Of a stretch of DNA of 58,230 nt, positions 25,505 to 44,343 are shown piece by piece. Under the pieces are notes generated by a model, which was not told the origin of the DNA, did not search any database, and saw nothing but the letters and a program-made list of their open reading frames with translations. How positions within the stretch are numbered: the first letter of the stretch is position 1; each line of letters begins with the position of its first letter. The position numbers and the translations under genes are program-made. Source of the stretch: Clostridia bacterium (GTDB taxonomy: Bacteria > Bacillota > Clostridia > Christensenellales > Aristaeellaceae); the NCBI GenBank assembly GCA_017463245.1, contig JAFTPN010000070.1, forward strand, positions 1 through 58,230, written 5' to 3'.

Positions 25505-25711
25505 GGTTGAATTCCTTCGGGTCTGTGGTTGCAAGCCGATGCCAGTCGCAGGCAAAGCGGTCCACGTAAGGCGCCCAAAGCGGCGCTGAGCATGGTGCGG
25601 TTTAGAAGTAAGTCCGCCCGGAGCAACGACTCCGAGAGAAGTGCGTGAGGGCGCAAATGGCGCAGAGCTACCTTCCAGGCGGCGAGTGTGGGGTCAAAAA
25701 CCAGGTCAGCC
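25505..25711 (+). ncRNA. raiA-like large structured RNA
   Basis: A 207-base GC-rich region free of ORFs lies between a near-consensus promoter and the zinc-ribbon gene. GGTTGA at 25505 can pair with TCAGCC at 25706-25711, closing the whole element. Inner landmarks are GTTGCAAGCC, GATGCCAGTCGCAGGC and GTAAGTCCGC. The length, the GGTTGAATTC start and the closing stem agree with what I recall of the raiA motif, a highly structured Clostridial RNA of unknown function. I cannot run a covariance search. RNase P, SRP, tmRNA and 6S RNA were considered and do not fit. Confidence 0.6.
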
Positions 25712-25753
25712 GGAGAATTCGCCTATCTTTACTATTCAGGGGGTTACCTAACC

Positions 25754-41745: not shown

Positions 41746-43422
41746 TTACTTCTTCGCAGCGTCCTTTTCGCGCAGTTCCACGCGGCGGACTTTGCCGGAG
41801 ATGGTTTTGGGGAGGGCATCGACGAACTCGATGACGCGGGGGTATTTGTAGGGGGCGGTGAGCTTCTTGACGTGATCCTGGAGCTCCTTTTTCAGGGCGT
41901 CGGAGGGCTCCCAGCCGGGCTTGAGGACGATGGTGGCCTTCACCACCTGGCCGCGCATGGGGTCAGGCACGCCGGTGATGGCGGTTTCCAGCACGGAGGG
42001 ATGCTCCACCAGGGCGCTTTCCACCTCGAAGGGTCCAATGCGGTAGCCAGAGGACTTGATCACATCGTCCGCGCGACCCACATACCAGTAGTAGCCCCAT
42101 TCGTCGCGCCAGGCCACGTCGCCGGTGTGGTAGATCTTGCCGTCCCACACATCGGCGGTCATGCCCTCGTTGCGGTAGTAGCCCGCAAACATACCGATGG
42201 GCGCGCCATGGTGGGTGCGGACGATGATCTCGCCGGAAACGCCGGGCGGGCAGGGATTGCCCTCGCTGTCGATGAGGTCAACATCGAACACGGGGGCGGG
42301 CTTGCCCATGGAGCCGGGCTTGACCTCCATCCAGGGGAAGGTGGCCAGAGTGACCAAGAGCTCCGTCTGGCCGAAGGCTTCGCGCATTTCCAGGCCGGTG
42401 CGCTTCTTCCATTCCTCGTACATATCGGGGTTCAGGGGTTCGCCGGCCACGGCACAATGCTTCAGGCTGGAAAGATCATACTTGGAGAAGTCCTCCTGGA
42501 GCATATAGCGGTACATGGTGGGGGGCGAGCAATAGGTGGTGATCTTGAACTTTTCGATCATGGCCAGCAGCTCGCCAGCGTTGAACTTGTCGAAGTCGTA
42601 TACGAACACGCAGCTGCCGCCCAGCCATTGGCCATAGAGCTTGCCCCACACGGACTTGGCCCAGCCGGTCTCCGAGACGGTGAGGTGCAGGCCGTGATCC
42701 TGCACCTGCAGCCAGTACACAGCGGTGAGAATGTGACCCAGGGGGTAGAGGAAGTTGTGGGTCACCATCTTGGGCATACCGGTGGTGCCGGAGGTGAAGT
42801 AGAGCAGCATCAGGTCTTCGTTGTGGGGGTAATCCGCACCGGTGGGCTTCTCCCACTCTTCGGAGGCGGCGGCAAAGCCCTCGTCGTAGCTCAGCCAGCC
42901 TTCGCGCTGGGTGCGGACGATGACCTTGTGGCGCAGGTGGGTGCAGTCCGGGGCGGCCTCGTCGATGGCGTTGCAGACCACGGAGGTATGCTCGGTGGCC
43001 ACAATGACGGACACGTCCGCCGCATTGCAGCGATAGCGGATGTCCTTGGCGGTGAGCAGGTGGGTGGCGGGGATGGTCACCGCGCCGATCTTGTGCAGCG
43101 CCATGATGATGGGCCAGAACTCGTGATGGCGCTTGAGGATCAGCATCACGGCATCGCCCTTCTTCACGCCCAGGGACTTGAAGTAGTTGGCGGCCTTGTT
43201 GGAATCCACCATCATGCGCTGGAAGTCGTACTTCACCACATCGCCTTCGGGATTCGTCCACAGAAGGGCTTCGCGGGTGGGGTCTTCCTTGCCGTAGCGG
43301 TCGACCACGTCGTAAGCAAAGTTGAAAGAGTCGGGGCGCTTGATGCGGAAATTCTTGTTGAAATCCTCATAATTGATGAAATCGCCCTTGACATCCATGT
43401 ATTCATGATAAAGCGGCAGCAT
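41746..43422 (-). CDS. AMP-forming acyl-CoA synthetase (acetyl-CoA synthetase-like)
   Basis: 558 residues of the ANL superfamily. The P-loop-like motif is YFTSGTTGMPKMV, then EAFGQTE, YHTGDVAWRDEWGYYWYVGR, the hinge GRADDVIKSSGYRIGPFEVE and the catalytic Lys in LPKTISGKVRR. It converts a carboxylic acid to acyl-CoA through an acyl-adenylate. The MLPLYHEYMDVKGDFINYEDFNKNF opening (in two parts) is of the medium-chain/branched-chain synthetase kind. It follows the XRE-cupin regulator by 30 bases under one T-box leader. Confidence 0.9.
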   Translation of the reverse strand: MLPLYHEYMDVKGDFINYEDFNKNFRIKRPDSFNFAYDVVDRYGKEDPTREALLWTNPEGDVVKYDFQRMMVDSNKAANYFKSLGVKKGDAVMLILKRHHEFWPIIMALHKIGAVTIPATHLLTAKDIRYRCNAADVSVIVATEHTSVVCNAIDEAAPDCTHLRHKVIVRTQREGWLSYDEGFAAASEEWEKPTGADYPHNEDLMLLYFTSGTTGMPKMVTHNFLYPLGHILTAVYWLQVQDHGLHLTVSETGWAKSVWGKLYGQWLGGSCVFVYDFDKFNAGELLAMIEKFKITTYCSPPTMYRYMLQEDFSKYDLSSLKHCAVAGEPLNPDMYEEWKKRTGLEMREAFGQTELLVTLATFPWMEVKPGSMGKPAPVFDVDLIDSEGNPCPPGVSGEIIVRTHHGAPIGMFAGYYRNEGMTADVWDGKIYHTGDVAWRDEWGYYWYVGRADDVIKSSGYRIGPFEVESALVEHPSVLETAITGVPDPMRGQVVKATIVLKPGWEPSDALKKELQDHVKKLTAPYKYPRVIEFVDALPKTISGKVRRVELREKDAAKK

Positions 43423-44013: not shown

Positions 44014-44308
44014 GGTGATCCTCCTCTGTCAGAAAAAATGTGGGATAAAAAAACCTGCTCCCTCGAAGTGAGGCGCAGGGCTTGAAAAGCAATTACAGGA
44101 ACACGCAGGGTGTTCGGGTGTCGGCTCCAACAAGCCCAAGCCTATCACGCGGCGGCGTCCTTCACTACTGGGGATGAACCCGTTGGCAAAGGCTGCTCAG
44201 GAGTGATGTACCCGATCCTGTGCCACCGGCTTGCACCAACCGCCGGTTCTCTGTGCGCAGGGAGGAAAAGGCTTGTCTCCGTCAGAGCATTTGGTTCAAT
44301 ATTTGGTT
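44014..44308 (-). ncRNA. T-box leader, predicted specifier AUC (isoleucine)
   Basis: The 295-base minus-strand leader has the T-box landmarks. The Stem I base is AGAGAACCGGCGG...GTTGGTGCAAGCCGG (about 44225-44255). The specifier region TAC-ATC-A-CTCCTGAGC (ATC at 44205-44207) aligns with the glyQS pattern GGC-A-UUCUUGAGC. A TGGAGCC (44123-44129) could be the tRNA-acceptor bulge, flanked by GGGCTTG (44131-44137). That arm can pair with CAAGCCC (44078-44084), whose 3' part is also the 5' arm of the terminator CCTGC/GCAGG + seven T (44047-44079). The T-box sequence is not fully canonical. Confidence 0.75.
44047..44079 (-). terminator. Regulated terminator of the T-box leader
   Basis: CCTGCGCCTC / GAGGGAGCAGG stem with ACTTC loop and a seven-T run. 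Its 5' arm overlaps the 3' arm of the antiterminator helix. Confidence 0.85.
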
Positions 44309-44314
44309 GAGTGT

Positions 44315-44343
44315 ATCATAGCACGGGGAAAGGGCGCTGTCAA
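44315..44343 (-). promoter_or_regulatory. Promoter of the T-box operon
   Basis: Minus strand TTGACA (44338-44343), 17-base spacer, TATGAT (44315-44320); start predicted near 44308. Confidence 0.9.

Follow-up and report, generated by a model that had tools for sequence, protein, structure and literature searches.

An isoleucine T-box of atypical form, as judged from its sequence, leads a gene pair encoding an XRE-cupin regulator and an AMP-forming acyl-CoA synthetase in the window, by which we mean the whole stretch of 58,230 nucleotides analyzed here (Clostridia bacterium, assembly GCA_017463245.1, contig JAFTPN010000070.1). We consider it probable that this T-box acts by transcription attenuation and governs the regulator together with a 2-methylbutyrate ligase for isoleucine salvage. 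When tRNA-Ile is uncharged, transcription would read past the terminator and both proteins, the XRE-cupin regulator and the ligase, would be made; the ligase would convert 2-methylbutyrate to its CoA ester, a 2-ketoisovalerate:ferredoxin oxidoreductase (VOR), which is encoded elsewhere in the window's genome, would use reduced ferredoxin to carboxylate this ester with CO2, yielding 3-methyl-2-oxopentanoate, and a transaminase would turn this product into isoleucine. Synthetase, biosynthesis and transport genes are classic targets of T-boxes. 2-Methylbutyrate is a common gut and rumen acid, and it has long been known from feeding studies that microbes of the gut and rumen make isoleucine and valine from 2-methylbutyrate and isobutyrate, respectively; to our knowledge, neither acid has been linked to a particular ligase in these bacteria. 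In the present loci, the RNA switch seems to specify what each ligase produces, and thus the codon would predict the substrate of the enzyme.

Organization of the leader and the gene pair

The leader is 295 bases long (44014-44308, minus strand) and lies between a promoter and the XRE-cupin gene, which is followed by the ligase gene (Table 1). The full promoter that the initial annotation had placed ahead of the regulator was found, with a spacer of 17 bases between its two boxes. Just past the -10 box, an imperfect inverted repeat was seen by eye in the window (44293-44309) and in the related locus L017 (CAATCAAATATTGATTG in L017), which is a possible operator for the XRE protein. The Stem I text noticed earlier is present as AGAGA at 44248-44252 and GGTTGGTGCAAGCC at 44228-44241. 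Counting the window itself, six leaders have this form (the others are L017, L098, L100, L018 and L020), and among these, two-sided changes were seen at one pair of the Stem I apical stem and at one of the nine pairs of the terminator.

Table 1. Features of the T-box leader and the two genes that it precedes (window coordinates)
Feature	Position	Strand	Basis or remark
Promoter, sigma-70-type	44315..44343	-	TTGACA 44338-44343, 17-base spacer, TATGAT 44315-44320; read from sequence
T-box leader, Stem I to Stem III	44130..44294	-	RF00230, 54.5 bits, E 2.7e-11 (cmscan)
Stem I apical stem-loop CCGGC-GGTTGGTGCAA-GCCGG	44226..44246	-	5/5 pairs kept in 6/6 leaders
Specifier codon ATC (Ile)	44205..44207	-	By-eye alignment with own T-boxes; 6/6 leaders
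Stem III region	44145..44160	-	RF00230 alignment
Linker hairpin GGCUU-GUUG-GAGCC, contains TGGAGCC	44123..44136	-	Invariant in 6/6 leaders
GGGCTTG, 5' strand of candidate antiterminator	44131..44137	-	Pairs with 44078-44084 in 41/42 cells
CAAGCCC, 3' strand of candidate antiterminator	44078..44084	-	2-base overlap with terminator
Intrinsic terminator with T7 tract	44047..44079	-	9/9 pairs kept in 6/6 leaders
XRE-cupin regulator, 186 aa	43453..44013	-	Pfam HTH_3 and Cupin_2, both over cut-offs
AMP-forming acyl-CoA synthetase, 558 aa, probable 2-methylbutyrate-CoA ligase	41746..43422	-	MbcS model 466 bits; PDB 3etc 690.9 bits

The T-box covariance model RF00230, which had been proposed as a check on the minus strand, matched from Stem I to Stem III at a score below the gathering threshold of 93, at which the leader is missed. 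The other two families listed by cmscan for the leader region had E values of 7.3. In the window's own genome, 12 of the 16 RF00230 matches fell under the gathering score, and these include the matches ahead of hisS and pheS (genes assigned by eye), so this threshold is not decisive for the window leader. By eye, the specifiers of these 16 T-boxes are of many kinds, with codons for Met, Tyr, Trp, Val, His, Phe, Leu and Ile among them. The isoleucine specifier that had been suggested for the window was recovered: its ATC aligned by eye with the TTC of the pheS T-box and the ATC of an ilvA-like T-box of the same genome. Compared with the T-boxes of RF00230, the leader has the same AGAGA and GGTG Stem I text, specifier loop, Stem III and terminator, but it is without UGGNACC, and the genes that it precedes encode an XRE-cupin regulator and an acyl-CoA ligase.

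Specifier codons and gene arrangement among relatives

A protein search gave 79 loci, with an XRE-cupin match beside the ligase in 75 of them, and an XRE-cupin match was found in 114 of 200 genomes of the family. The relatives show two arrangements, in which the XRE-cupin and ligase parts are encoded either separately, by two genes, or together in a single fused gene of about 750-770 codons. The 217 distinct leaders (distinct in the last 150 bases, near copies included) comprise 118 fused and 99 two-gene cases; one fragment counted as two-gene (L192) is probably a fused gene cut at the contig end. The canonical T-box motif was present in 102 of the 118 fused leaders and in 7 of the 99 two-gene leaders, not counting L024, whose match was judged false by eye, and 6 more leaders have the window's form. 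Ten of the 16 fused leaders without the motif belong to a second gene behind another fused gene at the same locus, and these ten second genes have no leader of their own. T-box presence across the relatives was scored with motif scripts, and RF00230 was run at 14 ligase leaders. It matched ahead of the ligase at all 14 loci scored: ten canonical leaders scored 81.3-104.3 bits, with five above the gathering score; the four loci of the window's form scored 55.6 (L097), 57 (L098), 50.4 (L100) and 41.4 bits (L099).

Unlike those of the T-boxes of the window's genome at large, the codons read by these leaders fall into two classes only. Among the 109 leaders with the canonical motif, 61 specify isoleucine and 48 valine, and no other specifier was found. 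These calls were made with a rule that favoured no codon (104 by its strict and 3 by its relaxed version) and 2 by eye; the codons were ATC (60), GTA (24), GTC (18) and GTG (5), and the two unclear cases were read by eye as ATC (L214) and GTG (L183). ATC is the specifier of all six leaders of the window's form and of six canonical two-gene leaders. Thus, the specifier, whose consistency among homologous loci had been raised as a check, is always an Ile codon in leaders like that of the window and only Ile or Val among the wider relatives. An order-wide search with an Ile-type query matched 122 of 248 genomes, and 27 of the 30 loci fetched had the motif, which read ATC in 25, GTC in one and, by eye, GTA in one. 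An Ile-read and a Val-read ligase occur together in 25 of 46 sampled genomes (genomes assigned by hand). This evidence from the relatives would widen the salvage idea to a valine branch. The best reading of these sequences is that uncharged tRNA-Ile or tRNA-Val would switch on ligases for 2-methylbutyrate or isobutyrate, and that VOR would carboxylate the resulting CoA esters, which gives branched keto acids.

A T-box is lacking in most two-gene relatives, among them G001 of the window's genus. In G001 (L019 / L101), the XRE-cupin protein is 92% identical and the gene pair is kept, the T-box is gone, and by eye a short remnant resembling the start of the leader remains. The motif scripts did not find the T-box motif in archaeal relatives.

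The acid of the ligase and the direction of the pathway

The best NCBIfam model for the window ligase was MbcS (NF047394), below its cut-off of 850 bits, and the nearest solved homologue was MacsMa of Methanosarcina acetivorans (PDB 3etc), aligned over residues 11-556 (scores in Table 1). K256, W259 and G351 of the window ligase align with MacsMa Lys256, which we take to be a pocket residue, and with the pocket residues Trp259 and Gly351. MacsMa (3ETC) is described as preferring 2-methylbutyrate and as handling propionate poorly in the CoA step; its Trp259 is reported to be critical for substrate binding, and a glycine in its pocket to replace a tryptophan of Acs. The window ligase shares V258 and V357 with MacsMa and has A at position 255 where MacsMa has G; it is T-box-led, unlike the archaeal relatives.

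The Ile/Val label was mapped onto a FastTree phylogeny of 78 ligases with a T-box (10 ligases shorter than 380 aa were excluded). It changed twice on this tree, compared to an average of 26.3 changes, and never fewer than 21, in 200 trials with shuffled labels. At the two Ile/Val splits among the fused ligases, 47 and 4 of 479 columns were fully different, and three columns (255, 258 and 357) separated Ile from Val types at both splits, versus 0.39 expected. Fused Ile types have G at 255 and L at both 258 and 357, and fused Val types have A at 255, M, G or A at 258, and V or M at 357. In the alignment with 3etc, columns 255 and 258 flank Lys256 and Trp259, and column 357 follows Gly351 beside the acyl pocket. 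These three pocket-side residues support a sorting of putative substrates among the fused types; if both Val clades are truly one, the contrast is one event and not two. The same positions were also considered as a substrate predictor for the window ligase, and this was dropped because its residue set is mixed and MacsMa-like (A, V, V; MacsMa has G, V, V): A255 and V357 are Val-type states, and V258 occurs in neither fused type. Its two-gene kin also deviate from the fused-type code. Since the window ligase lies outside this code, homology alone speaks for its acid, and it most likely activates 2-methylbutyrate for isoleucine synthesis.

A route from propionate to isoleucine is known in some anaerobes, and the Ile-read ligase could in principle activate propionate, with propionyl-CoA being carboxylated to 2-ketobutyrate, which would feed the normal isoleucine pathway. 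Clostridium sporogenes offers a precedent, as it is reported to form isoleucine from propionate or alpha-methylbutyrate (Monticello 1984, as cited in PMC7476758). We regard this as improbable: it runs against the acid preference described for MacsMa and leaves the paired Val-read paralogues unexplained. The residues weigh little in this matter: position 255 holds the smaller Gly in the Ile types, but positions 258 and 357 hold Leu.

VOR-type alpha, beta and gamma genes lie downstream on the same strand within 9 kb of 21 of 50 fused T-box leaders, which corresponds to 15 of 43 fused loci because tandem pairs share one VOR set. The other 29 of these 50 leaders had no VOR in this same-strand range of 9 kb, and four further leaders have a 2-isopropylmalate-synthase-like gene in place of VOR. 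In 10 of 13 archaeal loci, the XRE-cupin gene, the ligase gene and the genes for three VOR subunits are adjacent; this adjacency was not found in Methanobrevibacter, and the other two of the 13 were unscorable. A 220-aa P-loop-like protein is encoded between the ligase and VOR genes in T-box operons (L157:5495-6163 and kin), and it had no NCBIfam match.

The MbcS match raises the prospect that the ligase supplies branched-chain fatty acid synthesis; a shortage of isoleucine would also leave the cell short of the anteiso primer 2-methylbutyryl-CoA, and the T-box would call for its salvage. Staphylococcus aureus MbcS, whose model is the best one for the window ligase, is reported to activate both 2-methylbutyrate and isobutyrate for the synthesis of branched-chain fatty acids, and the portion of its description at hand mentions no T-box. 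Against this role, archaeal membrane lipids are not fatty-acid based, and the T-box-led and archaeal ligases adjoin VOR genes as counted above; separate Val-read and Ile-read paralogues in one genome also fit amino acids better than primers. We hold the fatty acid role to be quite unlikely.

In the window's genus, VorB was found in 10 of 18 genomes, all within the 11 that have the XRE-cupin protein. The KorA of the window's own genome (G000:C74:16685-17749) passes the VorB model NF005507 with 579.6 bits against a cut-off of 399, as does the KorA of a T-box operon (L157, 547 bits). For KorB and KorC of the T-box operons, even the best-scoring model stayed under its cut-off, and the VOR alpha subunit does not reach the archaeal 2-ketoisovalerate alpha model NF006232, so the family does not fix the keto acid used. 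RF00230 gave no match near the VOR operon of the window's genome, which is on another contig, so this genome has only the ligase side under a T-box. The same genome also has T-box-led genes that by eye resemble de novo ilvA and ilvB, and thus salvage is not its sole route to isoleucine. Reviews and a rumen study describe 2-methylbutyrate as a precursor of isoleucine and isobutyrate as a precursor of valine. Taken together, the restriction of 109 T-boxes to Ile and Val codons, the VOR neighbors and the preference of MacsMa support the initial proposal that isoleucine starvation would induce salvage through a 2-methylbutyrate-CoA ligase.

The ligase and VOR reactions are reversible in principle, and VOR is catabolic in peptide fermenters, so the two enzymes might instead ferment branched-chain amino acids to acids. 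We find this very hard to credit, since a T-box would induce the genes under scarcity of the amino acid, whereas catabolism calls for the reverse, and AMP-forming ligases usually run toward the CoA ester.

A literature search returned no T-box on a branched-acid CoA ligase, and an earlier description in Vitreschak 2008 or Gutierrez-Preciado 2009 is possible. The terms 'CoA' and 'acyl' are absent from the main texts of Wels 2008 and of the TBDB paper, main texts being distinct from TBDB entries. The Geobacter iorAB-paaK system (PMC2700814) likewise appears to tie a ligase and a 2-oxoacid:ferredoxin oxidoreductase to one amino acid, but there the acids are aromatic and the conserved leader is tryptophan-linked, whereas the acids here are branched; in the table of that paper, leuA alone is footnoted as a T-box.

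The output end of the leader and other RNAs

In canonical T-boxes, the terminal antiterminator carries a UGGNACC bulge. This motif is absent from the window leader and its five relatives of the same form (6 of 6 leaders). TGGAGCC (44123-44129), which had been named as a candidate bulge, was rejected because it forms the 3' half of the hairpin GGCUU-GUUG-GAGCC. Of 115 ligase leaders with a T-box, 38 have the hairpin element CTTGWTGGAG (this base leaves out L202's second gene, which has no T-box leader), where it sits between Stem III and the antiterminator, and it was found in none of the 15 other T-boxes of the window's genome. Across the ligase leaders, the outer stem pairs of the hairpin covary (GG/CC, CG/CG and GA/TC), as expected of an RNA hairpin. 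In 32 leaders with the hairpin, a canonical UGGUACC bulge is also present 38-59 bases downstream, so that in those leaders hairpin and bulge are separate elements. The UGGA of the hairpin is the sole platform UGG common to all six leaders of the window's form. The discriminator of tRNA-Ile, read in one genome of the same family, is A73, which needs UGGU; the UGGU of the canonical relatives fits, and the UGGA of the hairpin does not. This discriminator was taken from another genus of the family because pattern searches of 18 genomes did not find a tRNA-Ile gene in the window's genus; a further pattern search over 9 genome handles gave 3 matches, all in another genus of the same family.

The mutually exclusive antiterminator and terminator that had been proposed were borne out in part. 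The terminator is kept in all six leaders. The exclusion looks weak: the two stems overlap by 2 bases, constrained folds with one or the other differ by 0.3 kcal/mol, and the strands GGGCUUG and CAAGCCC, whose pairing is kept nearly throughout, are nearly invariant in sequence, so covariation neither supports nor refutes the pairing. When the six leaders were folded, the best structures differed and had no antiterminator in common.

The atypical leader may be read in two ways, as a decayed switch or as a T-box whose output works differently. In the first case, the switch would be dead and the ligase would be under the XRE-cupin protein alone. The missing bulge, the RF00230 score of 54.5 bits compared to 81-104 in canonical relatives, and the complete loss of the leader in G001 are in line with decay. 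However, the specifier is kept in six leaders from two genera (g1 and g33), and the terminator pairs are kept as well; in addition, a stretch of about 34 bases around the hairpin hardly varies among the six leaders, versus a mean column identity of 79% over the leader, and this conservation speaks for a hairpin that may well be in use. We consider decay unlikely. A different output is our tentative suggestion, which we hold with less than even confidence: the window and its five relatives may have a new T-box output, in which the UGGN bulge, universal elsewhere, was lost and its role moved to the lineage-specific hairpin. The UGG of the hairpin loop would then catch the CCA end of the tRNA and open the hairpin, which would free GGGCUUG to pair with CAAGCCC and so weaken the terminator. 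In this view, the wider system of T-boxes that name the acid of the ligase would extend over Ile, Val and perhaps Leu codons. A functional leader of this atypical form would mean that a T-box is able to sense tRNA without the standard bulge.

Several other RNAs were observed. A raiA RNA in the window (25512-25718, plus strand, 173.6 bits) was the window's only Rfam match over the gathering score. The window's genome has a second T-box-led acyl-CoA ligase (L003 / L302:3991-6522, G000:C69), with the specifier CTG (Leu) and 94.2 bits; the encoded protein, of 843 aa, resembles a TIM barrel linked to a ligase of the FadD kind. Of its relatives, 30 were fetched and 29 scanned, and the motif was present in 15, all reading CTG (three by eye). 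At L214 (3334-3576, minus strand), a divergent T-box of 112.9 bits reads TTC (Phe) before a gene that by eye is phenylacetate-CoA-ligase-like (PaaK-like); the motif was found in none of 30 relatives, so it is a single case. At L110, L111 and L144, divergent T-boxes that by eye read CTC (Leu) precede a 2-isopropylmalate-synthase-like gene (283 bits, under the cut-off of 532), and at L144 this gene is followed by a TIM-barrel-ligase gene.
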